Below, piece by piece: positions 6,267 to 51,475 of a stretch of DNA of 64,000 bases. Below the pieces are notes generated by a model. The model searched no databases, was not told where the DNA came from, and saw nothing but the letters and a program-made list of their open reading frames with translations. Source of the DNA: Thermoguttaceae bacterium (lineage in GTDB: Bacteria; Planctomycetota; Planctomycetia; Pirellulales; Thermoguttaceae); contig JANXAQ010000156.1 of assembly GCA_025062105.1 (NCBI GenBank), positions 1 to 64,000 of the forward strand, written 5' to 3'. How positions within the stretch are numbered: the first letter of the stretch is position 1; the number at the start of each line of letters is the position of its first letter. The translations under genes and the position numbers were made by a program.

Positions 6267-6417
6267 CAGCCTTGTGCTATTTTCCTAAGTTGGTTTGCTT
6301 CCAATAGTTACGGCGGAATCTCCTTTTGTTCATCCAATTTTTCCTAAGTCCAATAGTTACAAGGAGTTAGAGCTTCTACCCCCGTGCGGGGTGAGGCAAA
6401 AAATGACAAAAGTCGTG
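6267..6417. repeat. Element A, copy A6
   Basis: Left end worn (CAGCCTTGTGCTATTTTCC), right end AAAATGACAAAAGTCGTG. The flanks are a perfect 5-bp duplication, CTAAA at 6262-6266 and 6418-6422. It lies just upstream of the large secreted-protein gene. Confidence 0.85.
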
Positions 6418-12958: not shown

Positions 12959-13146
12959 GGAACCTCTGCAAAATACTGAACATATAGTGAACTTTATGGA
13001 CTCTTGATTCTATAGCCATTCGGTCCTTCTATCCGAATACCTACTATCTATTGGATGCTAGCAATGCTCGAACTCTATATGTGGTGTTAGAGGAAGGACA
13101 TCGAAAATCGTATCAAAATATCCCCCTTGAATTATGCAGAGGTTCC
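12959..13146. repeat. Element B, copy B4
   Basis: Well-preserved copy: GGAACCTCTGCAAAAT at left, ATTATGCAGAGGTTCC at right, GAACATATAGTGAACTTTAT inside. Flanks TACA and TATA agree at 3 of 4. Confidence 0.9.
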
Positions 13147-13154: not shown

Positions 13155-13292
13155 ATTGATTTTTGCCATTTTTCCTAACTATGTTTGTCCCCACCAGGTA
13201 CGACGAAGCATCCTTCTGTTCACCCAATTAATAATTTCAAGCACTTAGAGCTTTCCTCTTTTGCCAGGAGGCCACAAATGGCAAAAGTCGAG
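13155..13292. repeat. Element A, copy A7
   Basis: Left end ATTGATTTTTGCCATTTTTC, right end AAATGGCAAAAGTCGAG. The target duplication ATAAG is perfect (13150-13154 and 13293-13297). Confidence 0.9.
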
Positions 13293-13296: not shown

Positions 13297-13636
13297 GAAA
13301 CTTCTGCAAAATCGGAAACATATAGTGAACACCTGAGCTTTTGATTCTATAGCCGTTCCGGGCTTCTCTCCGACCACCTACTGGCTATTGGGTGCTGCAA
13401 TGCTCGCACTCTAGATATTGCGTTCGAGGGAAGATCGGCCAACATGATATAAACTCGACTTTTCCCAATTTCCAGGGTGCTGCCCCTTTGGGATATCCTC
13501 TCCCTTTGAAAATATTGGAGTTAGGGAATTTACTGAACAAAGAATCTTCAAAACCTAAGTCCTTGAAATAAAAGACATTACAAAAAACGGCAAAAGTTGA
13601 GATAAAAATATCCCCTTTCCATTATGCAGAGATTCC
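13297..13636. repeat. Element B, copy B5, split by A8
   Basis: Left half 13297-13453 (GAAACTTCTGCAAAATC ... CATGATATAAA), right part 13607-13636 (AATATCCCC ... GCAGAGATTCC). Flanked by ATAA on both sides (13293-13296, 13637-13640). Element A8 sits inside with its own duplication. Confidence 0.88.
13454..13601. repeat. Element A, copy A8, nested inside B5
   Basis: Ends CTCGACTTTTCCCAATTTC and ACGGCAAAAGTTGAG, inverted orientation. A perfect 5-bp duplication ATAAA at 13449-13453 and 13602-13606 lies within B5 sequence; removing A8 and one copy restores the B consensus. Confidence 0.92.
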
Positions 13637-13868: not shown

Positions 13869-15854
13869 ATGGACCATAAAGCAGACCGATTGGGGACCAG
13901 ATGGTATTGGAATCGGCACGGGGCGGTTATTGTGGGGCTGGGATTGCTGGCCATCGGGATCCCTGCGGTTAGCGGAGCGTCTGGCCAGGAGGGGAGGCCG
14001 GGGGTGATCTTCGTTTCGCCCGATGGTGACGATGCCGCTGCAGGTACCCAAGAGGCCCCCTTCCGTACCCTGCAGCGAGCCCAGCAGGCCGTCCGGGAAC
14101 TGAAGAAAACCTGGAAGGAGAAAAAGGATCTGGTTGTGGTTCTTCGAGGCGGGGTCTATCGACTGGAAAGCCCGATCGTCTTTGGGCCGGAAGATTCTGG
14201 CGGCAAAGATTGGGACGTTGTCTATCGGGCTGCCGATGGCGAAGAAGTCATTCTCAGCGGTGGCAAACTGGTGAATGGTTGGAAGCAAGAGGAGGGCGGT
14301 TTGTGGTCGGCCGAAGCGGATCTAAAGCCGTTTCGGCAGCTTTATATCGGCGGGCGTCGAGCGGTCCGTGCCCGGAGCGGCAAATTGCCCGAAAACCCCG
14401 CACCCTATCGCTGGGAATTCCTCCACGATCCTTCCAAAGAAGGCGGACTGCCTGACGCCGACTTCCTCCACTACGAAGGCTTCCGCACCTCATGGACCGA
14501 AATGGCCCAATGGAAAAATCAACAGGATGTGGAGCTTTCCTTCCTCAATGTCTGGAGCCACATGCGCTATAAGGTCCGAGCCATTCGCCAAGAGGGCGAT
14601 GCGGCTTTGCTGCTCATGCTCCAGCCGTACTTCTTGCATGGCCGGGCCAAAGAAGGCAGGCAGGTCAATTTACCGGCTTGGGTGGAAAATGCCCGGGAGC
14701 TATTAGATCAACCGGGGGAATGGTACTATGATCAACCGGCTCGGCGTCTCTACTACCTGCCTCGGCCGGGCGAAGACCTGGGCCAACAGGAAGTGATTGC
14801 CCCGCAGTTGGAGCGGCTTTTGATCGTCCAGGGTGTCCCAGGTCGACCTGTGCGCCGCCTCCGCTTCGAAGGCCTTCTGTTTGCCGAAAGCAACTGGGCC
14901 TTGCCCAATCGGATCGGTCATGCCGACATGCAAGCCAATTTTACGTTGGATTCCCACTCCCCCAAGCTTGAAGTCCGTCTAGGCGGGCTGGTTCAGGTCC
15001 ATAATGAATATCGGAAAAGTCCCGGCGCGGTTCTTTTGCGCATGGCCGAGCAAGTGGTCTTTGACCGTTGCACGTTCACCAGGCTTGGACATGCCGGCAT
15101 CGATATCGAACAAGGCTCTCGACGGAATCAGATTATCGGTTGCCATTTTTATGATATTTCGGGCAGTGCGATTCAGGTAGGTGATGTGGGGCCGGAAGAC
15201 CATCATCCCAGCGACTCAGCTCGGATTGTCTGCGATAATACGATTGCCAACTGTTTGATCCATGATTGCTGCCTGGAGTACATGGGAGGAGTGGGCGTCT
15301 TTGTCGGCTACACCACTCGGACGGTCATCCGAAACAACGAAATCTGCCGATTGCCCTATACAGGTGTTTCTGTTGGTTGGGGCTGGGGGGAAGAAGATGC
15401 TGGTGGCGGCGCCTATTGGCAGCCGTTCTTCTACGACACTCCTACCCCTTCCAGAGAAAATCTGATCCTTCGGAACCATATACATCATGTGATGCGGCCC
15501 ATGCAGGACGGCGCCGGCATCTACACCCTGGGCCGACAACCCGGCGCCCAAATCTTGGAAAATTACATCCACGATAACCCCGGCGAACCTGGCGGCATCT
15601 ACCTAGACGAAGGTAGCGCCGAAATTACCGTCCAGAATAACCTGGTAGTCGGTGTGCCCAAAGGTCTGTTCTTCAACAACCACGCCCAGGATCGCCATCT
15701 GACCTGCAAAGTGGAAAACAATTACATCCATGAAGAAAAACCACCGGCCCAGTGGAAACCCGAAGAACAAAAGATCATCCAGTCTGCCGGCCTGGAGGAA
15801 AAATATAAGGACCTGCTCCAAAAGCAACAGAAGTGGTTAGCCGAATCGGAGTAA
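13869..15854 (+). CDS. Secreted right-handed parallel beta-helix protein, GH141-like
   Basis: 661 residues; AGGAGG lies 8 nt before the ATG. A long N-terminal signal region (basic start, hydrophobic AVIVGLGLLAIGIPAVSG about 19-36) predicts export. The mature N-terminus reads VIFVSPDGDDAAAGTQEAPF then TLQRAQQAVREL and VVVLRGGVYRLESPIVFGPE, the opening of pectate-lyase-like beta-helix proteins of the GH141 kind; GGRRAVRARSGKLPENP fits the inserted sandwich. From about 395 the helix coils repeat (VFDRCTFTRLGHAGIDIEQG, IIGCHFYDISGSAIQVGD, NTIANCLIHDCCLEYMGGVG). GH141 members act on pectic fucose or xylan; which glycan is used here cannot be told, and no catalytic residue is assigned. It stands as a single gene between clusters of repeats. 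Confidence 0.85.
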   Translation: MDHKADRLGTRWYWNRHGAVIVGLGLLAIGIPAVSGASGQEGRPGVIFVSPDGDDAAAGTQEAPFRTLQRAQQAVRELKKTWKEKKDLVVVLRGGVYRLESPIVFGPEDSGGKDWDVVYRAADGEEVILSGGKLVNGWKQEEGGLWSAEADLKPFRQLYIGGRRAVRARSGKLPENPAPYRWEFLHDPSKEGGLPDADFLHYEGFRTSWTEMAQWKNQQDVELSFLNVWSHMRYKVRAIRQEGDAALLLMLQPYFLHGRAKEGRQVNLPAWVENARELLDQPGEWYYDQPARRLYYLPRPGEDLGQQEVIAPQLERLLIVQGVPGRPVRRLRFEGLLFAESNWALPNRIGHADMQANFTLDSHSPKLEVRLGGLVQVHNEYRKSPGAVLLRMAEQVVFDRCTFTRLGHAGIDIEQGSRRNQIIGCHFYDISGSAIQVGDVGPEDHHPSDSARIVCDNTIANCLIHDCCLEYMGGVGVFVGYTTRTVIRNNEICRLPYTGVSVGWGWGEEDAGGGAYWQPFFYDTPTPSRENLILRNHIHHVMRPMQDGAGIYTLGRQPGAQILENYIHDNPGEPGGIYLDEGSAEITVQNNLVVGVPKGLFFNNHAQDRHLTCKVENNYIHEEKPPAQWKPEEQKIIQSAGLEEKYKDLLQKQQKWLAESE

Positions 15855-16055
15855 GCCCCGCCGGACGAAAATAGCGATCCTTCCACGGGTCGAAATCCTC
15901 GTCTCTACCTACCTTGCTGTGCTTTCTTAAAAAAACGTCCTAACTGCTTAAATTACAAGAAGTTAGGGTTACTGGCTTTGGGAGGTCCCAAAATCCTAAT
16001 TCCCGAAACGCCAACAGGTTAGAACAATCGTCCTTGACAGTGTTTAGAAAAGTCG
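15855..16055. other. Intergenic stretch
   Basis: Only a short internally deleted A-like piece (CCTAACTGCTTAAATTACAA, about 15938-15966). TTGACA at 16033-16038 has no convincing -10 box. Confidence 0.4.
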
Positions 16056-17350: not shown

Positions 17351-17540
17351 GGAACCTCTGCATAATTCAAAGGGGATATTTTTATACCATTGTGGCTGAT
17401 CCTTCCTCTAACACAATATATAGGGGTGCCAGGATTGCTAGCCCACAATAGATAGTAGGGGGCCTGGGAGGACAACGGAACGATTAGAGAATCAAAAGTG
17501 CATAAAGTTCACTGGATGTTCAGAATTTTGCAGAGGTTCC
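17351..17540. repeat. Element B, copy B6
   Basis: Complete: GGAACCTCTGCATAATTC at left, TTTTGCAGAGGTTCC at right. Target duplication TAAT at 17347-17350 and 17541-17544. It lies between two convergent genes. Confidence 0.92.
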
Positions 17541-20121: not shown

Positions 20122-20266
20122 CTGGTCTTATGCCATTTTTGGGCTTACCCTGGTAAATGCTCTAACTCCTTGTAGTGGTTGCTATTGGGTTAGATTTTGT
20201 GAAGAAAGCAGAAATCGTTGTAACTACTGGAAAAGAGAACAGTTAAGAAAAATGGCAAGAATCAAG
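20122..20266. repeat. Element A, copy A9, directly after a stop codon
   Basis: Left end CTGGTCTTATGCCATTTTTG begins at the base after the pilin-like gene's stop; right end AAAAATGGCAAGAATCAAG. Inverted orientation. No clear duplication. Confidence 0.8.
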
Positions 20267-23830: not shown

Positions 23831-24103
23831 CTCGACCTTTTGCCATTTTGGACGCTGCTCTAGAAACTCAACTTTTGCCATTTTGGGTCTCGCTTTCGAA
23901 AAAGGATACTCGAACTACTCGTAGCTATTGAAGGTTACAAATTGGATAAACCAATAGAGTTCGACTTTTGCCGTTTTTCCTGGGTTGGTTTGACTCCAAG
24001 GGTTACGACGAACCTCCTGCTCTTGCAATTTCCTAAGGCCAATCATTTCAAGGAGTGAGAGTTTTCCCTCTTCAGCAGCAGCCCAAAAATAGCAAAAGTC
24101 GCA
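23831..24103. repeat. Cluster of A elements: two fragments and copy A10
   Basis: Two A ends follow one another (CTCGACCTTTTGCCATTTTG at 23831, CTCAACTTTTGCCATTTTG at 23877), the second truncated near 23958. A fuller forward copy A10 runs 23960-24103 (TTCGACTTTTGCCGTTTTTC ... AATAGCAAAAGTCGCA). Confidence 0.75.
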
Positions 24104-24108: not shown

Positions 24109-24583
24109 GGAATCTCTGCCAAATCCTTAAACAGAGTAAGGAATTATAGGAACTTTTGCTTCAATAAGCATCAAGCCGCTCTATCCCATCACCTACTATA
24201 TGTAGCCCCGTTGGATAATCCTGGACATATAGTGAACATTATGAGTTTTGATTCGGTAGGTTTTAGCCTAGCCATCCAAACACCTACTCTATGTAGGGAG
24301 CTAGCAGGCTAGTAACCCTCTATGTAGGGTTGGAGATGAGGGCACCAAAATGATATAAAGAACCTCTGCAAAATCCTGAACATATAGTGCACTTTGGGAA
24401 CTTTTGACTCTCTAGCCGGTAGATTTTCCTATCTGGAAATCTACGATCGATTGGGTGCTAGCAATGCTAGAAGCCCTAGTTGTTGTGTTAGAGAGAAGAC
24501 CAGACAAAATGCTATAAAAATATCCCTTTCGATTATGCAGAGGTTCCATAAAAAATATCTCCGTTGGATTATCCAGAGGTTTC
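24109..24583. repeat. Compound B element: outer hybrid copy B7 containing another B
   Basis: Outer left end GGAATCTCTGCCAAATCC at 24109. A second B left half, lacking its end, begins near 24214. The outer right end ATTATCCAGAGGTTTC finishes at 24583. A complete B (24359-24547) interrupts it. Confidence 0.8.
24359..24547. repeat. Element B, inner copy nested in B7
   Basis: AGAACCTCTGCAAAATCC at left and ATTATGCAGAGGTTCC at right. Duplication ATAA at 24355-24358 and 24548-24551, within outer B sequence that continues on both sides. Confidence 0.9.
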
Positions 24584-26334: not shown

Positions 26335-26490
26335 AGGCTGTTCTAAAAAAACATTTTCGATGAGGAAAGGTGGTTTCCTTCCTCAATGGCACAGAATCCC
26401 CAAAATCCCTCTTTTTAAAGAGTGAGGAGGGAGGAGCTGGTCGGACAAAACTCATTGGAAACCGCCCAAATCCCAATTTCAGGACGGCCT
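26335..26490. repeat. Element C, copy C2
   Basis: Ends AGGCTGTTCTAAAAAAAC and CAGGACGGCCT. The interior matches C3 (TTTCCTTCCTCAATGG, AAATCCCTCTTTTTAA). Flanks TTCAG and CTCAG agree at 4 of 5. Confidence 0.85.
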
Positions 26491-28626: not shown

Positions 28627-28814
28627 TGAACCTATGCAAAATCCTGAACATGTAGTGAACTTTTGGGACTTTTGATCCTATCGCCGTTCGGTTCTTCTCT
28701 CTGAACACCTACGATCTATTAGGTGCTAGCAATGCTGCCGGTTTATATGTTGTGTGGGAGGAAGGGCATCGGAAATGGTATAAAAATATCTCCCTTGAAT
28801 TATGCAGAGGTTCC
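28627..28814. repeat. Element B, copy B9
   Basis: TGAACCTATGCAAAATCCTG at left, ATTATGCAGAGGTTCC at right. Duplication TACA at 28623-28626 and 28815-28818; A12 follows directly. Confidence 0.9.
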
Positions 28815-28818: not shown

Positions 28819-28966
28819 CTCGACTTTTGCCATTTTTCCTAACTGCTTTTGCTTCCAATAGTTACGACGAAACCTCCTTTCGTTCACTCAATTTCCTAAG
28901 TCCAATAATTACAAGAAGTTAGAGTTTTCCCTTTCTGGGACAAAGCCAAAAATGGCAAAAGTCGAG
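28819..28966. repeat. Element A, copy A12 (close to consensus)
   Basis: 148 bp; ends CTCGACTTTTGCCATTTTTC and AAAAATGGCAAAAGTCGAG are perfectly complementary over 18 bp. Flanks CTACA and CTTAG agree at 3 of 5. This is the best reference copy. Confidence 0.95.
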
Positions 28967-30309: not shown

Positions 30310-30459
30310 CTCGACTGTTGCCATTTTTCCGAACTTGGTTTGTCTCCAAACAGGTCCGGCGAACCCACTTTTTGTTCGCCCAATTTCCCTAAGTCCAATA
30401 ATTCCAGGGAGTTAGAGATTTCCCCCCTTGGCAGAAGGCCCAAAATGGTAAAAGGGCAG
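30310..30459. repeat. Element A, copy A13, abutting the mqnD start
   Basis: Left end CTCGACTGTTGCCATTTTTC begins at the base next to the mqnD start codon; right end AAAATGGTAAAAGGGCAG. No duplication visible. Confidence 0.85.
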
Positions 30460-30494: not shown

Positions 30495-30646
30495 CTCGAC
30501 TTTTGCCATTGTGGCTCTTGCCCTGAAAGGGCAATGTTTTCAGGCCTTGTAACCATTGGAATTATGGAATTGTGGCAGCAAAGGAAAATAAATTGCATCC
30601 TAACTGTTGGATGACAAAGGAGTTAGAGAAAATGGCAAAAGTCGAG
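30495..30646. repeat. Element A, copy A14 (inverted)
   Basis: CTCGACTTTTGCCATTGTG at left, AAAATGGCAAAAGTCGAG at right. Flanks TTGAT and TGGAC do not match. Confidence 0.88.
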
Positions 30647-31435: not shown

Positions 31436-34183
31436 CTACCGACGATTGTTCCGATACTGTTGAGTGATCCAGGCAATCGACTCCAGAGCAGTGAGGCTGT
31501 CTTGGATTTTAGCGACAGCCAATTCCATCTTGTAAAGCTGATTCAGGAGCCTAGTACGCTCTTTTTCCAGCATGGCGCTCATATGTTCGATTCGCTGCAA
31601 ATTGGCGTTGATTTTTCCGTTCAGGGCTTCGAGGCGTTGGGAGATAGTGGAATTTTGTTCGCCAGCCAATTGTTCAATCAGTTCCTGAAGCCGATTGGCC
31701 AGGCCTGTGCCAGAAGCAGCAAAAAAGTTTTGAACTTCTTGAGGATCTTCGGCATAGGCGGCCTGAAATTTTTGCTCGTCCAGCTGTAGTTTTCCTTCTT
31801 CTGTTAAGCTCAGGCCAAGGGATGCTAGGGATTGGAATCGGCGACTGCCAGTAAACCGACCGCTCAGGAAAGCACTCAGACTGGATTCAAATCGCAGTGC
31901 CGTCGAATCCCCCGTTAAAATCGACCCTTTCCCGGTGTTCGTATCGTACTTGGTATAATCTTTCAGTTGGTCTCGAAACTTGTTGTAATTTTCCACGAAG
32001 GTTTTCAGACTAGCCTGCAAGACCGCATCCGAACTGCTTACTTGCACTGTAACCGTAGTGCCTGTGGCCTGTTTAATCTGTAGCGAAACGCCGTCGATTA
32101 CATTGGTAAAGGTGTTTGATGAAGAACTGATTACCATTGCCGAGGCGGCTGAGGAAGCAGGTCCATAAACCAACTGGGCATCCTGAGCCCGGCTGGTCTC
32201 CTGAAACTGGATGCCCAAATCGGCCGTATCCACTACTAAAGCTCCCACTTTTCCGGACTGTTGGCTAACTAGAGCTAAATGCCACGGCCAAACCGAACCG
32301 GCATTCAACAAAGAAGCCCTGAACCCAGCCCCAACGGCATTAATTTTTTCCTGAAGACTCTGAAGGGTGTCGGTACTGCTAAGGCTGATTTGGTAGGTCA
32401 TCGACCCGTTGATAATCTGTTGGGTTTGGCTTCCTTCAACTACCGTCTGTGCCGAGCGGAGCAGTCCCAAATCTTTGGCCGTGGTGCTGCCGGCTTCGGT
32501 AACAGTTAGTTTTCCTGCCCCTCCAGCAGTATCTCGCAACAGGATGCCATCGCCGGTGGAATTAATCTCCGCGCGGACGTAGAGGGAGTTGGTATTGATG
32601 GTTCGAAGGACATCGCCGACAGTCTGGATGTTGCTAGAGCGGAGGTCGATCGTGGTGGTGCGACCGGTGCTATCTTTGATATAGAACCGCCCCCTAGCAA
32701 CCCCTGCTCCGCCATTCAGAGAGCTTAGCAACGTATTTTCACTCAGGATCCTTAGATGCAAATCGCCGCTATCCACAGAGCTGACCGGAGCATTGACAGC
32801 AATCTGTAGCTTGTCGGCCGTATTGGTTTGGTCGCCATTGGCTACAATGAGGTTGTTAGCCGTGGCACCTGAGGTATCGAGTAATTCGATCCCATTTTTT
32901 GCCCGATTTACCCTAGCTAGGATGGAAACCGAAGAGGCGTTAATGGCTTCTATTACATCTTCCAAGGTTTCTGCATTCCTCAGATCCACCACATCGGTAT
33001 TGCCGCTTCTATCGGTAAGCGACAAGAGGCCTAACTGGCCCAGGCCGCTGCCGCCGTTAAGACTCCGAAGGCCTACTGTGCGCAGACCGCTCAAGATGCG
33101 CCGACCGGTAATCACTCCACCAACCGATTCTGTATCTAGGCCCAAATCGGCCAGGGTCTTTGAGCCGTAAAGAGGGCTCAAGGTGAAAGTACCGGGCCCG
33201 GTGGTTAAATCCCTCAGCACGAGCCGACGCCCATCCGGGCCGATCTCCGCCCGGATTTTGCCACCCGATTGTTCCTGGATTTTTTGTAAGATCTCTCCTA
33301 GCGTAACCTCTCGGGTGCCGGAGGAGGCAAAGTTAATCTGGCCTTTGGAACCATCCCGAAGTGTATAAGAAATCTCTGGCAACGAGCTACTGATGGAAAT
33401 CCCAGCACCATCGTTGAGGACATGAAGCTCCATGTTGTCAAACAGCCGAAGAATGTCTTCTCCCTCGGCCACATTCTGGGCCACATTAATTCCAGCCAGA
33501 CCGAGCGACCGAGCGGTTGTGCCGCTGCCGACTTCCAGCACTTTGAGGTTGGAGACCGTCTGGCCGGTTTGGTCTTCCAGACGGATTCGACCGTCCCGCA
33601 CACTGGCCAGTACATTGACGGTGGTATTGTGATTGATCGCCTCAAGCACATCGTCGATGGTCTGGGCGGTGGATAGATCGATGTCGGCCCAAGCACCGCT
33701 GCGATCAACGATGCGTATTTTACCCCGCTGGATGCCTTGGCCGCCGTTGACCAGGCTAAGCGAAAGGCCCCGTTCTACATGGTCGCCAAAGCGGATGCTC
33801 ATGGTGCCAGAAATGCCCAAAGGCTCTTGAGCAGAGCGGAAACCGGTACTGAGCAGTTTATGGTTTTGGGCCATCCGAATAGGCGTCAGTTCATATTGGC
33901 CTAAGGGGGGATTACCGGTTTTAGTGACGGCCAATATATCGGGGTTACTGGAAGTAACTTGGCGCTGTTGGTAGGTTTCGGATTTGGCCAGAGTGGCTAC
34001 GGGCATTTTGATTGCATAAAGCAATCCGGCCAAGGTCCCCAGGGCAGTCTGCTGTTCCTGGAGGGTTTTGTTTCGCTCTTCGAGAATCTGTTTGGGCCGG
34101 GCTGAGATTTCCATCAGCTTATCGACCAGCTCTTTGATGTTAATGCCGGTTATCAGCCCGACCGTGGTTTGGATGGTGCCCAT
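31436..34183 (-). CDS. fliD: Flagellar filament cap protein FliD (hook-associated protein 2)
   Basis: FliD caps the growing filament and guides flagellin folding at its tip. 915 residues, far above the ~470 of E. coli. The N-terminal FliD_N part holds VGLITGINIKELVDKLMEIS and RPKQILEERNKTLQEQQTAL. The C-terminal FliD_C part holds FVENYNKFRDQLKDYTKYDT and LNQLYKMELAVAKIQDSLTA. Between them, about 130-600, lie at least four flagellin_IN-type repeats, each marked by LNGGxG or LNDGAG followed by IDLxxAxTIxDVLxxIN (SLVNGGQGIQRGKIRIVD, LRSLNGGSGLGQLG, LSSLNGGAGVARGRFYIKD). These add surface domains. It is transcribed with the cluster and is 1.1 kb downstream of fliC. Confidence 0.95.
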   Translation of the reverse strand: MGTIQTTVGLITGINIKELVDKLMEISARPKQILEERNKTLQEQQTALGTLAGLLYAIKMPVATLAKSETYQQRQVTSSNPDILAVTKTGNPPLGQYELTPIRMAQNHKLLSTGFRSAQEPLGISGTMSIRFGDHVERGLSLSLVNGGQGIQRGKIRIVDRSGAWADIDLSTAQTIDDVLEAINHNTTVNVLASVRDGRIRLEDQTGQTVSNLKVLEVGSGTTARSLGLAGINVAQNVAEGEDILRLFDNMELHVLNDGAGISISSSLPEISYTLRDGSKGQINFASSGTREVTLGEILQKIQEQSGGKIRAEIGPDGRRLVLRDLTTGPGTFTLSPLYGSKTLADLGLDTESVGGVITGRRILSGLRTVGLRSLNGGSGLGQLGLLSLTDRSGNTDVVDLRNAETLEDVIEAINASSVSILARVNRAKNGIELLDTSGATANNLIVANGDQTNTADKLQIAVNAPVSSVDSGDLHLRILSENTLLSSLNGGAGVARGRFYIKDSTGRTTTIDLRSSNIQTVGDVLRTINTNSLYVRAEINSTGDGILLRDTAGGAGKLTVTEAGSTTAKDLGLLRSAQTVVEGSQTQQIINGSMTYQISLSSTDTLQSLQEKINAVGAGFRASLLNAGSVWPWHLALVSQQSGKVGALVVDTADLGIQFQETSRAQDAQLVYGPASSAASAMVISSSSNTFTNVIDGVSLQIKQATGTTVTVQVSSSDAVLQASLKTFVENYNKFRDQLKDYTKYDTNTGKGSILTGDSTALRFESSLSAFLSGRFTGSRRFQSLASLGLSLTEEGKLQLDEQKFQAAYAEDPQEVQNFFAASGTGLANRLQELIEQLAGEQNSTISQRLEALNGKINANLQRIEHMSAMLEKERTRLLNQLYKMELAVAKIQDSLTALESIAWITQQYRNNRR

Positions 34184-34748
34184 ATAGGAGTGCCCAATGC
34201 CTGGGAAGTCCGTCGTTGGCTCTTTATTCTCTCTCTAATTAAAATTAGATCGTCTTCAAAAAGGGAATTGGTGAAATTTCCTTATCTTAGGAAATAGAAA
34301 ATGGAGGAAATCAGGAGAAAAAAAGACGTTTACGAAATTTACATAAAATAATAGGAATGATGTTTTGGGAAGGCTGTACCAGGGGACCCAGCCAAAGCCC
34401 TCCGTTTTATGGCATAGGAAACCCCCTATCTTCTCATTTCCGTGCACACAGGCCTCCAGACTTCATAAGGCAGCCCCCCATTGGTGTGTACACATCTTTT
34501 CGGACTCACAATATGTTGTGGTAAACTGCTCGGTAAGGCCATAACATCTTGTAGGAGAAAGCCGTTATGTAAATACCAATGGCAGCCCCCTGAATCTTTC
34601 CCTAGAAGCAGACATCCCAATTCTCGATTCCCAAAATTTTTAACCTGTTTTTCTGGATGCCGCTTTTGCAGTGAGGACTCCCTGGATCTCTGTTTGTGCT
34701 GAGCTCAGCCCCCTGCATCCCTGATTCCGCAGAGAAGGCAAAAATGGG
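34184..34748. other. Region upstream of fliD
   Basis: Upstream of fliD on the minus strand: an AT-rich block with a palindrome (TCTAATT AA AATTAGA, 34234-34249). No clear sigma-28 or sigma-54 site found by eye. No gene. Confidence 0.35.
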
Positions 34749-35102
34749 GAACCTCTGCATAATTCAAGGGGCAAGGGGGATATTTTGATACCATTTTGGA
34801 TGTCTTTCCTCTAAGAGGCTGTCTGAAAAGAACGTTTGGCTCGCTGGGCTGCCAAGTTGTTTCCACCCTCAGGAAAAGCTCCAAGCCAGGATTTGGGCAC
34901 CTTGGCTACCCAGAACCCTCACCGGCCTTTGCAAAAGGAAGCTTGGCTACCGCCCTTTTCAGACAACATCTCACACAACATATAGAGCGCAACATTACTA
35001 ATACCCAATAAGAATAGTAAGTGTTCGGATAGAAGAACCGAACGGCTATAGAATCAAAGGTCCATAAAGTTCACTATATGTCCAGGATTTTGCAGAGGTT
35101 CC
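34749..35102. repeat. Element B, copy B11, split by C5
   Basis: GGAACCTCTGCATAATTC at left, TTTTGCAGAGGTTCC at right, duplication ATGG at 34745-34748 and 35103-35106. C5 interrupts it. It lies between fliC and fliD. Confidence 0.92.
34816..34969. repeat. Element C, copy C5, nested in B11
   Basis: Ends AGGCTGTCTGAAAAG and TTTTCAGACAACAT. Flanks CTAAG and CTCAC; the interior differs from other C copies, so it may be a sister family sharing ends. Confidence 0.7.
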
Positions 35103-35173
35103 ATGGATTTCTCCAGTGGCTTTCGCCGTGGGAGATGCCAAAACGGGGCTTTTTCAGGTGCGTGGAAATGGTA

Positions 35174-35216
35174 CCCAACAAAAAGCGGCGTGGTTCCTGA
35201 GGGGAACACGCCGCTT
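35174..35216 (-). terminator. Rho-independent terminator of the flagellin gene
   Basis: Stem arms at 35183-35197 and 35203-35216 (AAGCGGCGTGGTTCC pairing with GGAACACGCCGCTT, one bulged G). In the minus direction a T-rich run follows (complement of 35174-35184). About 110 bp past the fliC stop. Confidence 0.85.
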
Positions 35217-35327
35217 GGAATGGTTCAGCAGGTTCGGATAGGTTCCAACCGGCTAGGTATTTTGGCGGTTTACCGTTTTAAGTTGTCGGCAACCTATCCG
35301 GCTATGGCTCCTGGCCCGAGGAACTTA

Positions 35328-38051
35328 CTAGAGGTTCCGGAGCAGGGCCAGGACGTTTTGCGGGTTCTGGTTGGCGATGGTCAACACAGCCATACCGGAT
35401 TGCACGAGCACCTGGGCCCGGGTGAGATTAGCCGTCTCGGTAGCGAAATCGGCGTCTCGGATCTGGCTTTCGGCACTAACCATGTTTTCCAAGGTGTCTT
35501 CCATGGTTTTGATGTTGGTCTGCATGGTTAGGCCTTCCAGAGCGCCGAGCCGACCTCGAAGCTCTGTAACCACCTGAATCGCTTCATTGACGATCTTGGC
35601 GGCCAGAGTGGGATTGGTATATAGGTCGGCATCGCCGCCGGTTTGCAGTTGGTATAGTTTTCCGCTGGCGCCGCCGAGCCGGGCCGTATTCAGGCTCTTA
35701 ATGCCCATGCGGATCTGCTGGTTGGTAACCACGTCTGGGCCTAACTGGAACTGGGCACCGCCGCCCAGGATCGTAAACTTAAAGTTGTCATCAGTTTCTG
35801 GGGCCAGATCGATAGTAATATCCAGCATGGAGGTGTTGACCCACATCTTGTTGCCGTCCGATGTGGCTGTGACACCGTTGATCTTCCCTTGCACATCCGT
35901 ACCAGTGGCCCGGAAAGCGCTGACACTGCGGGTAAAGGTACCTTGGGTGCCCTCGTTAATCACATTGACGGAGATAAACTGTTTGGAGCCATATTGCTGA
36001 GTTTGGAAGGTAACTAAGGCATTGTCATGGAGGGCGACCAGGCCCAGGGTATCAGACACGGCGTTGATAGCGGCGGCCACTTGGTCGGCCGTAGTGCCGC
36101 GGTAGAAGGTAAACACTTCCATACCTTCCGGACCGGCCACTTCCAACACCAGATCATCCAGCAGGGCGTTACCGCCGCTGGTGCCAGTGTTGCCCACCAC
36201 CGTGTTATCCACGCTATTGCCGTAGATCCGGCCAATGCCATTATCCTGATAGTAGGCAGCAAAACCTTCCACGGCATTGATGGCATTAGCGATGTCTTTG
36301 AGCGTGGTGGCCGAGGTGTCGCTGTAGTTGACCTTGATGGTGAAGGTATTGGAGGCTCGGTCATACATGGCCACCGGGGCGCTAAGCCCTGTTTGGGCTT
36401 GGATAACCACCTGCATGTTGTTGTAATTCGAACCAGGCAGAATCGCTTCCACCGTCAGCGTATCCTGGCCGGTCTCCACGGAAGTCTGATTTCCGTTGAC
36501 CGTTTCGGTGCCGCCGTCCAGGACATGAACAGTCCAGGCACCGGTCTGTTTGATCACTTCCGCAATCCGATTGACGGTGGTCGAACCACTCTTATAGTGG
36601 ACCACCAACGATTTACTATCTGCGTCGTACTGAGCGTACTCATTACCTTCGGTGGCATCGTCGAGAAACTGGATGAGCACATTGGCCGCTGTCGCACCCA
36701 ACCTATTGGCCTTGATGTCCACCGTAGCCGTGCCGTTGTTGGTGGTAAAGGTCTTGGTAGCACCGGCGGCAAAGGTCAGGGTAGCTTGGGCCCGGCTTCC
36801 AGCGCTGAAGGCTGATTTCAGATAGCCGCTCACACTGGTGCTGGCCCGAGTGGCCAAATCCGAAGCCAACGCACCATACACTCGAGTGGCCGCGGTGCTG
36901 GCCGTCGCCTGGAAATAGTTGCCTAGATTGTTATTAATTGCTGAGGCAATGGTAGTCAGCCTCGTATAATTGGCCGCTAGGTCTTGCCCGTTCACTTTGA
37001 TCGTGATCGTCTTAGTAACCGAATCATAGGTGGCTTGGGCGGTGTCAGCGCCCAAGGTATTATCCTTTTCCAAAAGGACCCGAACGTTGTTATACTCAGT
37101 GCCTTCCGTTTTTGCAGTGATAGTAATGTAGTCCCTCGCCATCGTGGCAAGGCCCTGGGCATTGCCCAGACTATTGACTTTGGTATTGGCGTTGGCTTCT
37201 GAATAAGCCTCGAATAATCCGGTATTTTCGATGGCTGTGATGATTTGGCCGATGGTAGAATCATCCTGGTCGAAGGTAACGGTAAGCACCTTACTAGTGG
37301 CGTCATAGCTGGCCGATACGGCAGTGCCGTCCCCGCCAGCGATGAATCGGACAGTAACGCCGTCGAATTCCTTGGAGTTGGACTTGGCGGCAATGAATAG
37401 ACTGATGTCGTTGTCCCCATCGTCTTTTCCGGGGGCTAGCACCCGGCTGGAGAAATAGAGATTGGTGGTAGCGTAATCGGCACCGGAAGAAGAGGTGATT
37501 TGGGCTTTTGTCGCAGGGGCCTCAATTTCCACCGAAACCTCCATCTGGCCGGTAGCGCCGAGGTTGGCCTGATCAATCTTCAAATTGCGAATCTGTGGGA
37601 TGGTGTTGGCGTTGGTGACAAAGTCCAACGAGCCGTCCAATACGCGCCGGCCTTGGAACTTGGTAACCTGCGAGATTCGGTTGATGGCTTCCAGAGCAGA
37701 GTCCACCTGCATTTGGTTAGCGGCCAGCTGCTCTTCGCTCATCACCGCGGTGTTGGCTGCCTCGGTAACCAGAGACCGAATGTCATGTAACAGGCTAGCA
37801 ATCGAGCCTAAGGCACTGTCGATCGTAGCGATCATCTGGGTGCCGCGCTGCGTGTTGCTGATGGCTTTTTGCACCGCAACGATGTTGTTCCGCATGATTT
37901 CCGCGGCAATCATACCGGCCGGATCGTCTTTTCCGGTGTTGATCCGCAAGCCGGTGCTTAGACGAGTCAAGGCGGTTTGCAACGCTTGCGTGTTGCGCGA
38001 CAACGTCTTTTGCGCATTGAGCGAACTGACGTTTGTGTTAATGCGGGTCAT
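35328..38051 (-). CDS. fliC: Flagellin with large repeated insert domain
   Basis: Filament subunit, 907 residues, almost twice E. coli FliC. The D0/D1 core is clear at both ends: MTRINTNVSSLNAQKTLSRN, ALTRLSTGLRINTGKDDPAG and IQVVTELRGRLGALEGLTMQ, then LTRAQVLVQSGMAVLTIANQ and the terminal QNPQNVLALLRNL. Between about 214 and 610 are four repeats of an ~80-residue unit: a strand, a G/N turn with N-G/N-V/M-x-V, a YDxxSKxLTI strand, then TTxxxIAxAIN and an aromatic-rich end. The same unit occurs four times in FlgL. Such inserts form the outer surface of the filament. Three GGA triplets in the leader could be CsrA sites. AAAAGG lies 9 nt before the ATG. Confidence 0.96.
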   Translation of the reverse strand: MTRINTNVSSLNAQKTLSRNTQALQTALTRLSTGLRINTGKDDPAGMIAAEIMRNNIVAVQKAISNTQRGTQMIATIDSALGSIASLLHDIRSLVTEAANTAVMSEEQLAANQMQVDSALEAINRISQVTKFQGRRVLDGSLDFVTNANTIPQIRNLKIDQANLGATGQMEVSVEIEAPATKAQITSSSGADYATTNLYFSSRVLAPGKDDGDNDISLFIAAKSNSKEFDGVTVRFIAGGDGTAVSASYDATSKVLTVTFDQDDSTIGQIITAIENTGLFEAYSEANANTKVNSLGNAQGLATMARDYITITAKTEGTEYNNVRVLLEKDNTLGADTAQATYDSVTKTITIKVNGQDLAANYTRLTTIASAINNNLGNYFQATASTAATRVYGALASDLATRASTSVSGYLKSAFSAGSRAQATLTFAAGATKTFTTNNGTATVDIKANRLGATAANVLIQFLDDATEGNEYAQYDADSKSLVVHYKSGSTTVNRIAEVIKQTGAWTVHVLDGGTETVNGNQTSVETGQDTLTVEAILPGSNYNNMQVVIQAQTGLSAPVAMYDRASNTFTIKVNYSDTSATTLKDIANAINAVEGFAAYYQDNGIGRIYGNSVDNTVVGNTGTSGGNALLDDLVLEVAGPEGMEVFTFYRGTTADQVAAAINAVSDTLGLVALHDNALVTFQTQQYGSKQFISVNVINEGTQGTFTRSVSAFRATGTDVQGKINGVTATSDGNKMWVNTSMLDITIDLAPETDDNFKFTILGGGAQFQLGPDVVTNQQIRMGIKSLNTARLGGASGKLYQLQTGGDADLYTNPTLAAKIVNEAIQVVTELRGRLGALEGLTMQTNIKTMEDTLENMVSAESQIRDADFATETANLTRAQVLVQSGMAVLTIANQNPQNVLALLRNL

Positions 38052-38504
38052 ACGAGAAAACCTTTTCTAAAAAAGTCTTGTCCAAGCCTGACCGGAGTGC
38101 GGGTTCCTACGGTCCTGGCCAGCTTGTCTGGATGCCGCGGGCGGCTAGAGCCGGCGGCCCCAGAGGGAAACTTTGTCTATCCGTTCACCCGCTCAAGAGG
38201 CTTGCCGACACCACATCGGCAACGGCCCCATGAGGGCGCTTCCTGCCTATAGCAATTATCGACTTGATAAAATAGGTGCTTTAGGTAATTTGGGTTTGTG
38301 AGTTAATCTTTCCCCCTATTCTTCTCTAGGTTTTCTTCGGCATCAAAATTTCTTCGGGACGGTAAAAAATTCCTTTCCACAAACACCTATCACTTCCCAC
38401 CGCCGTTATAATCGGAATAAACGGAACAGCCGAAGCCTTTGGATGTTCGAACTGACAAGGAAGATCATTAACTTTTATTTTCGAGGAGTTGGGCTTTGAG
38501 AGTT
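38052..38504. promoter_or_regulatory. Flagellin leader and upstream region
   Basis: On the minus strand the leader next to the fliC start has GGA triplets at 38081-38083, 38105-38107 and 38113-38115, and an inverted repeat TTGCCGA...TCGGCAA near 38200-38221. CsrA binds GGA motifs in leaders, and csrA with fliW lies just upstream, so control of fliC translation by CsrA is plausible. No promoter identified with confidence. Confidence 0.3.
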
Positions 38505-38594
38505 CTTCAATTCACTAAATTGTCTAATTCCAGTATTGTTGAGGGATTAGAACATCCAAACGGGCAGCCATCCTAAAAATTGGCAAAAGTCGAG
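38505..38594. repeat. Element A, truncated copy A15
   Basis: Right half only, ending AATTGGCAAAAGTCGAG then CTTAG. The left end is lost. Beyond it, up to csrA at 38910, only a lone E-type end (GTTCGGCTGAGG) is seen. Confidence 0.6.
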
Positions 38595-38909
38595 CTTAGC
38601 AGAACCGCAGGGTGCCAAGATTGCTGGGTATACCGAGTCCTAGCGGCAGATTGTAGGAACCAGTAGCTGGGCGGGCCTTGAAGCCAATAGGCAGCTCGAA
38701 CTGCTATTGTCGTACAGAAGGCGATGTGGAATCTGCGTTCGGCTGAGGTGGTCTAACAATAGTTGGGGAGGAACAGACGACCGGCAGGGGTCAACTCTGC
38801 TTTCGGCCAATCTGGCGGACCCGTTGAGCATAACCAGCCAGGAGGATTTTGCCGTGCTATCAGAAGGCCCGAGAGTGCACCCTACTCTGTTTAAGAACGA
38901 AGGGGCAGG

Positions 38910-39167
38910 TTATACAGAAGAATTAGGTGGGCTTGGCGGTTGGGACGATGTGCTTTCAGTCAGTGGGTGGGTGTCGGCCGGGTCCAATTGAGCCGCCCGA
39001 AGGTTCTCCCGTTTGATGGCCTCATACACCTCTTTACGATGCACCGGAATTTCACTAGGGGCTTCGATTCCTAGGCGGACCTTGTCCCCCCGAATATCGA
39101 CCACGGTGATGATGATATTGTCCCCGATGATGATGCTTTGGTTGCGTTGTCGGCTCAGCACTAGCAT
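38910..39167 (-). CDS. csrA: Carbon storage regulator CsrA
   Basis: RNA-binding translational regulator, dimeric, 85 residues. The core is complete: [20 protein letters not shown] then [20 protein letters not shown] and [17 protein letters not shown], with the RNA-contact residues L4, R6 and the R44-equivalent region (PVHRKEV) conserved. A Pro/Ser/Thr-rich tail of about 22 residues follows the usual end. GGGGGA lies about 8 nt upstream. It is 30 bp downstream of fliW, the usual gene pair in flagellated bacteria with FliW, where free flagellin, FliW and CsrA set flagellin translation. Confidence 0.97.
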
Positions 39168-39197
39168 GGCCGGTTCCCCCAGTTGCCTATCCGCTGG

Positions 39198-39638
39198 TTA
39201 AGCAGTTTTTCGTAACGCAGTGTTCAGGCTAGCCACCACATATTGGATCGGTTGATCCCCATAGCAAACCACCTGCCGAGCTAGTCCCCGTTGGAGGTTA
39301 AAGATTAACGGAGCTTTGAGATTTAGAGTGATATAGCCGGCCGATCGACTGACAATGACCAAAACCTCTGCCGACTCCAAGTTCTCAAGCTCCAGCGGCT
39401 CTAGGTCTCGTCGGGGCAGACGCACTTGATAATTGGGGACGAACCGCCGAGGACTGACTACGCAAAGAGCTACTTCCGGCCGATCCACACTTTGCAACCA
39501 AGCAATGATTGGATTACGTCTGTCGGCTAACAGGAGCCACTGCCGACATCCAGGCAATCCTAGGATGCCTTCCGGAAACCGGATTACATCTTCGGGTTCA
39601 AATTGGATCAGGCCGAATCGCGTCGTAGCGATCCACAT
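39198..39638 (-). CDS. fliW: Flagellar assembly factor FliW
   Basis: FliW binds CsrA and also flagellin: when flagellin is exported, FliW is freed to sequester CsrA. 146 residues from the ATG at 39638 (MWIATTRFGLIQFEPEDVIR); an upstream codon at 39665 is less likely. Marks of the family: TRFGLIQFEPEDVIRFPEGI, LGLPGCRQWLLL, LQSVDRPEVALCVVSPRRFV and LNLKAPLIFNLQRGLARQVV. Length is normal. csrA follows after 30 bp and flgL precedes it by 290 bp. Confidence 0.95.
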   Translation of the reverse strand: MWIATTRFGLIQFEPEDVIRFPEGILGLPGCRQWLLLADRRNPIIAWLQSVDRPEVALCVVSPRRFVPNYQVRLPRRDLEPLELENLESAEVLVIVSRSAGYITLNLKAPLIFNLQRGLARQVVCYGDQPIQYVVASLNTALRKTA

Positions 39639-39929
39639 GGTGGAGGCCTCTACCCAAAAGATCACGTGTCCCCCGTGGGAAGTTTCTGCTACCTGGTCAA
39701 AAAATGGTATCTGGTGCCGCCGATTGTTACGCCGGTTGTTTTGTCATGCCCCCGCAGCCGGCAATCCGAATATTCTCTTTGTGGGGTCGATAGTTTTCTT
39801 CCAACGGGGGAGTTCTCACCGGGAAATAGTAACACACACAATTTATATCGGTTTCGGTAAAGCAGACAGAACAGAAAAAATAGAAGCGATCAGGAAAAAT
39901 AATTACAAATGGAGAAATTAGCAGGAAAA

Positions 39930-42900
39930 TTACAAATAGTTAAGAAGGGAAAGCTGGAATATCTGGGCAACTGCCCGCAATGCTGCTTCATACGTCGCCT
40001 GCCGCCCCACAAACTCCGAGACTACCCTCACCATGTCGGCATCAATATCCGAAGAAAGTGCAGTCTGCAGGTGTAGGTCTTCTTCTTCCAACCGCTGTTG
40101 CAAGATATCGAGGCCCTGTTGTCTGGCGCCCAAACTAGCCCGGCTAAAGTTCAGGTCCACCACCCTCTGGTCCAGCATGGCAATGGCCCGCTCAATTAGC
40201 CAATTATCATTCCGGATCAGGCCTTCGTGCAGCCGTAACAATGCGGTAAATAGACCTTCTGTCTCCTGAGGGTTTACATCCTGACCAGTAAGCAAATCAG
40301 GCTGGCCCCCTTCCAACTGGCCGGTTCTTTCGCCCAATGTTCCGGTGCCATTGTTCGGTCCACTGCGGGTATCCAACACCACGTCAAAAAGAGCATAGGC
40401 GGTCGGATCCAACGGCGGTTGCTGATTGAAACGTTGAATCAGCTGATTGGCTGTGGTTACTCCAGGATCAATGGAAAAGGTCAAGACCCGGTTGACCGGA
40501 TCATAGGAGTAGGAATTAGCCCCTGGGCCGCCGTTGACAAACCGGACCGTTACGCCGTTGAGCGTGTTCGTTCGGCCTCGAGTCCGGATGAGCAAAGCAC
40601 TGTTAGCTGTGCCAAAATCTAGGCGAACCGTAGCCTGGGCGCCTGGGGTAGAAACCGTGGCGGACTCTTGGCCTTCGGGGATGAGTCCCAGCTGGATGGC
40701 GGCCCGGCTCATAGAGGTCCGCTGGATGCGAAGCTGGCCGGTACCACCGCTATTATCCACCAGTTCAATCCCATTGCCGTACCGGGCCAGCCGAGCTACC
40801 AGCGGCGTACCTGTAGCCAAATTGTCCGGATGATTGTTAATCCGGTCCAGCACATCACCGATAGTCCGGGCGCCTTGGAGATTCACCTCGAAGCGCACGC
40901 CGTCGGAACGGGTGATGATAAAATCGGCGTTATCGACAAAGCCCCCAGCAGTCCGAACGGAGGCAACCTGTTTACCGCCATCGGTCCACAGGTTCGGTTT
41001 AGCCCATACGGTACCACTGCCGCTGCTAGGATGGTCGTCCGGATCTAAATAAAGAACAAAGTCTTGGTTGGCGTTTGGGTCGGCCTGAAGCCAACTGATC
41101 AGATCTTGAGCAGTAGTAACCCCCGATTGGATGGAAAAGATCATTCGTTTTTCCGTTCGAGAGTAGCTAAAGCCCGGTGGCCCTTCGACAATCTGAACCA
41201 AGACATCGTTCCACTGGGGCCCTGCATTTCGGGCCTTCAAGATCAGATCGTTGTCTGGGCCTCCCCATTGAAGTTTCAATGTGGCCGAGCGGCTGCAATC
41301 CACCAGACCGGTGCCGTCGTTATACGGCTCATTCCGCTTATCCAATTCCGCTTCAAAATAATCCCGAATGCCTGGCGTTTCTCGCACTAGCCGGAGAATA
41401 TCGTTGGCGGTGGTTTTGCCGGGCGTGATTTCAAACCGAATCGTCTTGGCGGTGGGATCATAGGAAACAGAATCCATCCCAGGTGGTACCTTTTCCACAA
41501 ACTCTACCGTAAAGTCGTTCCACTCTGCGCCGGTGCGGCGGGCTCGGATGACCAGGTCGCTATTGGCGGCGGCACTGTCCCAGCAGCACCAAGCCTTCTC
41601 CCCTACTCCGGCATAATCACACACACCCAGCCCGAAATTCAGTTCTTCCAAAAGGGTCTGATCGGAGAATGTGCGGATTCCCAATTGCTGGGCTGTAATG
41701 CCGCCGTTTTCGCCAATAGCAAAATCACAGCCGCTCAGTCGGGAACGAACGTCAATGCCAGTGCCAGCGGCATTAATCCTAGCAACGACATCGGCATCAG
41801 AGCCGTTAAAGACATTCAGCAAATCTTCGATGGTTTCAACGCCATCCTCTTTAGAAAAGGTGAGCGTAAAGATTTTGTTGCCATTGCGGATCTGCACTCC
41901 GGAATCCTGATCCAATTCGGTGCCGGTGCCAAACCGCAATTGGGCGGAAGCACCTACGGTAACCGCCGCTTTTCCGCCGTTTTGTTCGTCTAAAGGATCT
42001 AGTTCTGCGCGGAACGGGCAGCTGTGGGGATCATAGGCGGCGTTGATGGCGTCCACTACATGTCGGGCTGTGGTATAGCCTGCTTTAATGTTTACCCAGA
42101 GGGTCCGGGTGGCCTGCTCATAGCGCACAACTTCTCCGCCTGGATCCATCACGGTACCGTCGTCGTAGTAGCGGACAGTGATCCCGTTGTAGGCATCGCC
42201 TCGATATTGAGCAGTAACGATCACATCGTTATCTCGGCCGTTGGAGCGGATGACCGCTCTAGCCCGAGCGCCTAAGATATCGTCCAAGCGGGTTGTAGGT
42301 CGAAGGATGGGGTTCAGATCTTTGCCAACCAAGGGACCTGTGCTGACACCGTCTTTGGCCAAGATGCCCAGTTCACTCGCTGTGGTCCCATTGCCAACTT
42401 CTCGGATCGTCAGTGTGCCGCCGCTAAGGGAGATTTCCAGCCCGGTGGGGGTGATTTCTATATACATTTGTGTGCCTGTCGGCTGGTTTTGTAACAACCG
42501 AAGCGCCACATCACCAATCGTCTCGCAGCCGGTAATATCAACAATCCGGCTATCCATGCCGTTGGACACTTCAATGCTGCCGGGCCGCACTCCTTGCCCA
42601 CCGTTTAGGTCAGCAAGCCGGGTCTGAAACGTCAGTACCGGCGTTAAATCCGCTGTACCTCGCACCGCCTCCGACAGGGCGCCAAAGACCTCATGGCCGG
42701 TTAAATTGGTGGCAAATAGTAAATCCACATCCCCATAGCTTTCCAGCAGTGCTTCATTGCCCAGATACCGGACGATATTATCGGATCGGAGCTGAAAAGG
42801 CCGAATACCGGTCAGCGAACCAGCAAATAGATACCGCCCCCGAAAATTCTGATTGCCCGCATCGACCAACTGCTGCAGGGCTTGGCGCACGAGCATGGCT

Positions 42901-43256
42901 GCGGCTTGGCGTTGCTCGTCACTAGCCGTCGTCCCCACCACTGCCAATGCATTGGCACGCACCTCGGCCATCATCGACGAAATGCTGGAAATGGCCGTGT
43001 CCGTGGCGCTCATGAACGACTGGTTGGTGGCCAGATTCGTTTTGACCTGCTGTTTGCGTTCTAGCAGCCGCTGCAGACCAACAGCCCGCATCGAAGTAAC
43101 CGGATCCTCACTGGGCCGGTTAATCCGCCGGCCAGTGCTCATCTGGGTCTGCACTTTAAACAGGGCAAGCTGATCCTTGGCCACCTGCGTTAGCAGCCGT
43201 TCCCGGACAAATAGATCACTTACCCGAGTGCTGGGTATTCCAATGACATTGGCCAT
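39930..43256 (-). CDS. flgL: Flagellar hook-filament junction protein FlgL, very large
   Basis: HAP3, which joins the hook to the filament. 1108 residues from ATG 43256, against ~317 in E. coli. The core is present at both ends: DLFVRERLLTQVAKDQLALF, QMSTGRRINRPSEDPVTSMR, ALQQLVDAGNQNFRGRYLFA and, at the C-terminus, LNFSRASLGARQQGLDILQQ with MVRVVSEFVGRQATYEAALR. The middle holds flagellin_IN-like repeats (LADLNGGQGVRPGSIEVSNG; IGDVLDRINN) and four copies of an ~80-residue unit (about 343-423, 565-643, 669-743, 885-968) of the plan NDLxIRARxTGxxWNDxTVxFVE, PGxxxxSYDPxxKTIxFxIxPGxTTAxDI. That unit is shared with flagellin. The flank with flgK carries an E/D repeat. Confidence 0.95.
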   Translation of the reverse strand: MANVIGIPSTRVSDLFVRERLLTQVAKDQLALFKVQTQMSTGRRINRPSEDPVTSMRAVGLQRLLERKQQVKTNLATNQSFMSATDTAISSISSMMAEVRANALAVVGTTASDEQRQAAAMLVRQALQQLVDAGNQNFRGRYLFAGSLTGIRPFQLRSDNIVRYLGNEALLESYGDVDLLFATNLTGHEVFGALSEAVRGTADLTPVLTFQTRLADLNGGQGVRPGSIEVSNGMDSRIVDITGCETIGDVALRLLQNQPTGTQMYIEITPTGLEISLSGGTLTIREVGNGTTASELGILAKDGVSTGPLVGKDLNPILRPTTRLDDILGARARAVIRSNGRDNDVIVTAQYRGDAYNGITVRYYDDGTVMDPGGEVVRYEQATRTLWVNIKAGYTTARHVVDAINAAYDPHSCPFRAELDPLDEQNGGKAAVTVGASAQLRFGTGTELDQDSGVQIRNGNKIFTLTFSKEDGVETIEDLLNVFNGSDADVVARINAAGTGIDVRSRLSGCDFAIGENGGITAQQLGIRTFSDQTLLEELNFGLGVCDYAGVGEKAWCCWDSAAANSDLVIRARRTGAEWNDFTVEFVEKVPPGMDSVSYDPTAKTIRFEITPGKTTANDILRLVRETPGIRDYFEAELDKRNEPYNDGTGLVDCSRSATLKLQWGGPDNDLILKARNAGPQWNDVLVQIVEGPPGFSYSRTEKRMIFSIQSGVTTAQDLISWLQADPNANQDFVLYLDPDDHPSSGSGTVWAKPNLWTDGGKQVASVRTAGGFVDNADFIITRSDGVRFEVNLQGARTIGDVLDRINNHPDNLATGTPLVARLARYGNGIELVDNSGGTGQLRIQRTSMSRAAIQLGLIPEGQESATVSTPGAQATVRLDFGTANSALLIRTRGRTNTLNGVTVRFVNGGPGANSYSYDPVNRVLTFSIDPGVTTANQLIQRFNQQPPLDPTAYALFDVVLDTRSGPNNGTGTLGERTGQLEGGQPDLLTGQDVNPQETEGLFTALLRLHEGLIRNDNWLIERAIAMLDQRVVDLNFSRASLGARQQGLDILQQRLEEEDLHLQTALSSDIDADMVRVVSEFVGRQATYEAALRAVAQIFQLSLLNYL

Positions 43257-43285
43257 AGCCAATTATCATCCGATGCCGGAGGTTC

Positions 43286-45777: not shown

Positions 45778-46119
45778 GGAACCTCTCGATAATGTGAGGG
45801 ATATATTTTTATACTATTTTCGTTCCTCCCAGGACTGCCCCAAGATATTGGGTTGCTAGCACTGTTTGCTCCTGCATAAAGTAGCCATTTAGATAGAGGT
45901 CGCTAAACTCGACTTTTGCCATTTTCCCTAAGCTCTTTTGTTTCCGGTACTTACGACAAGACCTCCTTTTGTCCACCCAATTTCCGAACTCCAATAGTTC
46001 CAGGAAGTTAGAACTTTCTCCTTCCGGGAGGAGGCCAAAAATGACAAAAGTCGAGCTAAAGCCTATCGAATCAAAGGTTCTTGAGGCTCACTTCACGTTC
46101 ACGATTTTCCAGAACTTTC
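45778..46119. repeat. Element B, copy B13, split by A16
   Basis: Left part from GGAACCTCTCGATAATGTG to GAGGTCGCTAAA, right part from GCCTATCGAATCAAAGG to CCAGAACTTTC. The right end is worn. It lies between flgJ and flgN. Confidence 0.82.
45908..46055. repeat. Element A, copy A16, nested inside B13
   Basis: Ends CTCGACTTTTGCCATTTTCC and AAAAATGACAAAAGTCGAG. Perfect duplication CTAAA at 45903-45907 and 46056-46060. Confidence 0.95.
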
Positions 46120-46768: not shown

Positions 46769-46959
46769 CGAACCTCTGAAAAAACCTGAACCTACAATGG
46801 CAATTATGAACTTTTGATTCTATAATCGTTCTATGCCCCTATCCGGGCACGTAGTATGGATTAGCTTGCTAGCCATGTTAGCAACTCTCGCGGTTGGGTT
46901 CTGGGAAGAAAAAGCGGAAATGGTATGAAAATATCACCTCGGAATGATCCAGAGGTTCC
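46769..46959. repeat. Element B, copy B12, giving flgJ its ribosome site
   Basis: Left end CGAACCTCTGAAAAAACC lies 4 bp before the flgJ start; read on the minus strand it gives AGAGG 8 nt before the ATG. Right end TCCAGAGGTTCC. Flanks do not match well. Confidence 0.85.
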
Positions 46960-48118: not shown

Positions 48119-48266
48119 CTCGACTTTTGCCAATTTTCCTACCCTGGTTTGCCTCCGAGACTTACAGCGAACATGCCTTTTATTCATCCGATTTCCTAAC
48201 TCCAATAGTTCCAAGCAGTTACAGCTTTCCCATTTCGGCATGGGCCCAAAAAGGGCAAAAGTCGCA
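48119..48266. repeat. Element A, copy A17, between flgH and flgI
   Basis: CTCGACTTTTGCCAATTTTC at left, AAAGGGCAAAAGTCGCA at right. No duplication. A copy of the right-end motif (GCAAAAGTCTCACTTCTGGC) recurs at 48327-48355. Confidence 0.85.
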
Positions 48267-51024: not shown

Positions 51025-51172
51025 CTTGACGCTTGCCATTTTTTCTAACTTGCTTTAACTCGATGAGTTACGGGGAACGCTGCTTTTGGCCGCTCAATTT
51101 CCTAACACCGATAATTACAAAGAGGTAAAGCTTTTTCCTTTCGGCAGCCCAACCAAAATGGCACAAGTTGAG
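51025..51172. repeat. Element A, copy A18
   Basis: CTTGACGCTTGCCATTTTTT at left, AAAATGGCACAAGTTGAG at right. Flanks TCAAG and ATAAA differ. Confidence 0.85.
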
Positions 51173-51220: not shown

Positions 51221-51321
51221 CTCGAGTTTTGCCATTTTCCCTAACTTGGTGTGCCTCCAATAGTTCCATGGACTTAGAGCTTTGTCCGTCGAGGGCGAGG
51301 CCAAAAATGGCAAAAATCGAG
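51221..51321. repeat. Element A, internally deleted copy A19
   Basis: CTCGAGTTTTGCCATTTTCC at left and AAAATGGCAAAAATCGAG at right, only 101 bp. Perfect duplication CTTAG at 51216-51220 and 51322-51326. The left flank reads AGGACAATCTCTTAG, like the end of a C element. Confidence 0.92.
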
Positions 51322-51394
51322 CTTAGTGGGCCTTTTGGCATATTGAGCCTCCCTTGGAAAAAGCAGTCCTGTAGCTGTGGGTAAACCATTGGGG

Positions 51395-51475
51395 TTAAGA
51401 AATTACGTACACAAGATGGGTCTCATCCTAACTACTGGAAGTAAAAACAGTTATGGAACAATGGCGGCGATCAAA
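51395..51475. repeat. Element A, truncated copy at the flgG stop
   Basis: Only the right half of an inverted A (TAACTACTGGAAGTAAAAAC, AACAATGGCGGCGATCAAA). It ends against CTTAG (51476-51480), which contains the flgG stop codon on the minus strand. Confidence 0.65.

Follow-up and report, generated by a model that had tools for sequence, protein, structure and literature searches.

A high-copy MITE family in a Thermoguttaceae genome and its candidate IS701-like partner

Introduction

What are the short inverted-repeat elements that crowd the gaps between genes in this Thermoguttaceae genome, and what moves them? The window, as we call the whole 64,000-nucleotide stretch analysed here, holds many copies of one such element, Family A, which a preliminary description had read as a mobilised, non-autonomous MITE. 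We put the probability at roughly 0.9 that Family A is a MITE whose 18-bp ends would be recognised in trans by the IS701-like DDE transposase of a 1,611-bp insertion sequence (IS) elsewhere in the genome. The kind of element is already known; it is the scale that is unusual.

Results

A profile built from the copy at 28819-28966 (+ strand) found 28 pieces of Family A in the window, on both strands; about 20 are near full length, in agreement with the first count of some 20 near-complete copies plus remnants (overlapping profile matches to Family A number 29). With ≤3 mismatches allowed, the window has 39 matches to the end CTCGACTTTTGCCATTTT where shuffles predict 0.08, and the conservation first noted over 18 bp was borne out. 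So was the near-constant length: the most frequent value genome-wide is 148 bp (108 of 275 copies).

All six of the 5-bp duplications named at the outset are exact. They are CTAAA around the 151-bp copy at 6267-6417 (+) and the 148-bp copy at 45908-46055 (+), ATAAG around the 138-bp copy at 13155-13292 (+), ATAAA around the 148-bp copy at 13454-13601 (-), CTTAG around an internally deleted 101-bp copy at 51221-51321 (+), and CTGAG around the 146-bp copy at 57127-57272 (+), which abuts a Family B element. Paralogous empty sites were found for the copies at 13155-13292, 13454-13601 and 45908-46055, the last within another repeat. The copy at 28819-28966 has perfect 18-bp terminal inverted repeats (TIRs) yet no exact duplication (flanks CTACA / CTTAG), and exact duplication is absent from most older copies.

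Further 148-bp copies lie on the + strand at 5757-5904 (flanks CTCAG / CTTAG), 48119-48266, 51025-51172 and 58307-58454, and on the - strand at 55468-55615 and 59943-60090, the latter with a left flank of CTTAG beside a Family B element. Others near full length are at 1238-1381, 4516-4661, 23960-24103 and 30310-30459 (+), and at 6069-6213, 20122-20266 and, with 152 bp, 30495-30646 (-). Decayed pieces comprise copies with an eroded right end (3482-3612 and 53388-53535, +), eroded ends (51331-51465, -) or a missing left end (38479-38594, +), a truncated copy (23867-23959, -), and remnants at 15938-16034 (+) and 53330-53381 (-).

Target duplication extends well beyond the window. In an 864-kb sample (the window plus 40 stretches from contigs already known to hold Family A or a transposase), exact 5-bp duplications flank 69 of 275 near-full-length copies, compared to 9.8 in shuffled pairings, whereas 4-bp duplications occur at chance level. 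The duplicated sequence is usually CTNAG, with CTTAG and CTAAG predominating. Where both flanks read CTNAG, the middle base is identical in 44 of 52 cases (20.4 expected), which shows that the flank is duplicated and not merely required. Family A copies are 68-92% identical to their consensus (median 81.5%), and by nearest-neighbour identity they fall into two groups, one older and one younger, the younger above 90%. Among 58 copies whose sibling is 90-94% identical, 34 have exact duplications of 5-8 bp; of 71 copies at 75-80%, 7 do. This drop in exactness with copy divergence is the decay expected of real duplications. Duplications of 6-8 bp were found for 20 copies in the same sample (L051-L090 and the window), where ~0.3 were expected, and are not explained by a single fixed stagger; they count as evidence against the main reading. 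A long palindromic target was rejected as an artefact of a symmetric profile that scored elements on both strands.

Empty sites were also found. A paralogous site without the insert could be aligned for 63 of 270 copies, several alignments being base-exact and some weak, and the clearest such sites fall in other repeats of high copy number, Family C for example. In two congeneric genomes, G001 and G002, Family A was missing from the syntenic gaps of the flagellar region that were compared (nine and seven, respectively). Eight of the nine gaps carry Family A in the window genome and all nine are shorter in the congeners, in one case 56 and 66 bp against 679 bp, at a divergence too great for base-exact alignment of orthologous empty sites. 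Genome-wide, Family A matches number 22 in G001, all diverged, and none in G002. G001 also has ~340-bp elements with A-type ends (L142 3599-3940 and L144 3707-4046). The flagellar proteins encoded in the window at 31436-43262 are unusually long (FliD-like, 915 aa; flagellin-like, 907 aa; FlgL, 1,110 aa).

Among 19 window ORFs scanned none encodes a transposase, as the preliminary description had observed; a transposase gene with matching inverted repeats, for which it had suggested a search, lies on other contigs. Contig C130 of the window genome (G000) carries, at ~14421-16031, a 1,611-bp IS that is bounded by Family A ends (18/18 and 17/18 bases) and encloses an intact transposase frame of 446 aa. 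We reached it by way of a transposase adjoining an A-type end in G020, a genome from another genus of the same family. The C130 transposase scored 252 bits against NCBIfam NF049999 (IS701; cut-off 170) over nearly its whole length, and 85 bits against Pfam PF13546 (DDE_5; cut-off 27). It had no match in G001 or G002. The flanks of the intact IS differ from each other (CTTAG / CTAAA), and a broken second copy is present on contig C259. As Family A and the C130 IS are alike over only the terminal ~18-23 bases, nothing visible marks Family A as an internally deleted form of the IS copies now present. The unequal flanks and the limited likeness both count against the main reading. With target duplications, empty sites and a matching transposase element all found, the description of Family A as a mobilised, non-autonomous MITE stands: it is short, has TIRs, a near-constant length and many copies, and has an apparent autonomous partner.

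A scan of named genomes with the window genome's own transposase alone found no relatives. With an alignment of three transposase sequences, the scan found them in a groundwater Planctomycetota MAG, Limnoglobus, Zavarzinella, Fimbriiglobus and Entotheonella. The ends of these elements read CTCGACTT(T/G)TGC or similar, with CTNAG flanks, and three of the elements have an exact 5-bp duplication (CTTAG, CTCAG and CTGAG). Other genera also contain short elements with A-type ends and different interiors, two of them, in G020, with exact duplications of CTAAC and CTAAG. As A-type ends occur on short elements of other interiors, this IS type has probably given rise to MITEs on more than one occasion. 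In G020, an A-type end (L131 4478-5260) adjoins an IS5-type transposase; no second end was found there, and the end and the transposase family appear mismatched.

Families B and C also occur in the window. Family B (~155 bp, ends AGGCTGTCC; 26335-26490, 57278-57431 and 59774-59937) has CTNAG flanks, with exact 5-bp duplications in 14 of 42 elements compared to 4.9 expected. A Family A neighbour lies ~5 bp from 27 of the 42 complete Family B elements, and 33 Family A copies abut Family B where uniform placement predicts 0.13. Family A is therefore nested next to Family B at sites of the CTNAG type. Elements of Family C are ~189 bp long with ends GGAACCTCTGCA; the family shows 4-bp duplications in 35 of 120 elements, compared to 1.9 expected, and amounts to ~1,400-2,100 pieces genome-wide; its window copies are at 1050-1230, 12959-13146, 17351-17540, 24359-24547, 28627-28814 and 46769-46959.

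How many copies does the genome hold? The assembly is a MAG of 6.07 Mb in 345 contigs, 93.8% complete, in which 1,766 matches to the Family A TIR were counted at ≤1 mismatch (reversed control, 0). The 864-kb sample contains 393 Family A pieces, 275 of them near full length, which make up 5.8% of its bases. Because this sample came from contigs known to hold Family A or a transposase, 20 contigs drawn irrespective of Family A content were used as a correction. These unselected contigs contain 74-77 pieces (4.6% of bases) and have a TIR density of 295 per Mb, compared to 291 for the whole genome. From the samples and pattern counts we estimate ~2,200-2,800 pieces genome-wide, including 1,400-1,900 near-full-length copies. 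Taken together, eight short-repeat families, with MITE status proven for only part of them, occupy 13.0% of the unselected sequence and 18.0% of the Family A-enriched sample.

Discussion

The sequence comparisons above point to a route by which Family A could have spread. The C130 transposase would move it by the DDE strand transfer usual for its family, with a preference for CTNAG, and each insertion would duplicate CTNAG and so leave two sites for further insertion. Since the site would be doubled at each insertion, and Family B has the same flanks, copies would be expected to pile up side by side. Only 6.7% of Family A bases lie within ORFs, compared to 62% of the sample (crude ORF calls); most surviving copies are intergenic, and the presumed reason is selection against insertions in genes. 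More tentatively, and with the odds somewhat against it, the genome may have undergone a plant-like MITE expansion, in which an IS701-like transposase specific for 5-bp CTNAG sites doubles its own targets and the site is both used and replenished by two or more unrelated MITE families (A and B), so that intergenic arrays grow.

Could Family A instead be moved by a different, unsampled transposase, the C130 element merely having like ends? Elements can be missing from a MAG of 345 contigs that is 94% complete, the interior of Family A is unrelated to that of the C130 element, and the IS5-type transposase beside one A-type end in G020 was counted against the partnership. However, the only transposase type found between paired A-type ends was that of C130, in the window genome and in other taxa. 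PF01609 transposases were tried as partners and rejected, as none of 20 such loci fetched from the window genome had a matching pair of Family A ends. We therefore regard a different transposase as unlikely.

Less likely still is that Family A is a functional intergenic element (a structured RNA, terminator or regulator, as has been claimed for some REP or ERIC sequences) kept by selection, with mobility incidental. Its intergenic location would suit such a role, as would the strong predicted folding of its consensus (z -8.3) and a mild bias in orientation relative to tandem genes (115 opposite, 77 same; 864-kb sample, crude ORF calls). The early suggestion that transcripts would fold strongly is thus upheld thermodynamically, but the pairing is not kept by compensatory change: pairs in the Family A helices are conserved no better than independent columns (median z per helix -0.1 to 1.4), RNAalifold found no consensus structure in 70 copies, and Rfam had no match in the window. 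As the pairing is not maintained, strong folding is no evidence of RNA function, and with no structural covariation the interior hairpins look like relics of the founder and not conserved RNA. The absence of Family A from the compared congeneric gaps also argues against a selected function. The least probable explanation, to which we give hardly any weight, is that the copy number is an artefact of assembly or binning. The MAG is fragmented and the initial sample came from contigs in which Family A or a transposase was already known, but contigs chosen blind to Family A match the genome in TIR density, Family A copies sit within gene order common to the congeners, and the copies differ from one another in sequence.

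Mobilization by the C130 transposase remains our preferred reading, and this partner is IS701-like as judged from its transposase, which exceeds the NF049999 cut-off. The size of the IS is in line with the 1.4-1.6 kb of IS701 elements, and its ends carry ACT at positions 5-7 and fit the IS701 consensus (---YACT-Y--YR) at Y9 and Y12, but not at positions 4 and 13. The YREK motif of the C130 transposase reads Y-(2)-R-(3)-E-(6)-R: Y, R and E are in place and an R stands for K. It thus keeps the motif tyrosine that is absent from most IS701 transposases. For IS701 elements, the duplication is described as exactly 4 bp long (De Palmenaer et al. 2008, PMC2266710). In contrast, Family A and the relatives' IS copies show a 5-bp CTNAG duplication, and for this reason we do not file the C130 IS as a strict IS701 member.

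Like Family A, the Correia (NEMIS) elements of Neisseria are MITEs bounded by terminal inverted repeats, and their size is similar, but they have a TA duplication and different ends. They number more than 120 copies in N. gonorrhoeae (PMC10969869), compared to well over a thousand for Family A. The highest bacterial figure in the same source is 711 copies, for ERIC of Photorhabdus luminescens, which is classed there as a MITE and resembles Family A as a short, palindromic, intergenic element of high copy number, though not in sequence. Near-full-length Family A copies, at ~5% of a 6-Mb genome, exceed this figure more than twofold. With one family at ~5% and eight at ~13% of unselected sequence, the genome offers a natural test of bacterial tolerance to non-autonomous load, aided by congeners without the C130 transposase for comparison and by a single intact source gene. 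RUP of pneumococcus is another MITE that has been attributed, on the strength of common ends, to an IS resident in its own genome, and it too inserts near other mobile elements (PMC2229807); it differs from Family A in having an IS630-type partner and a TA target.
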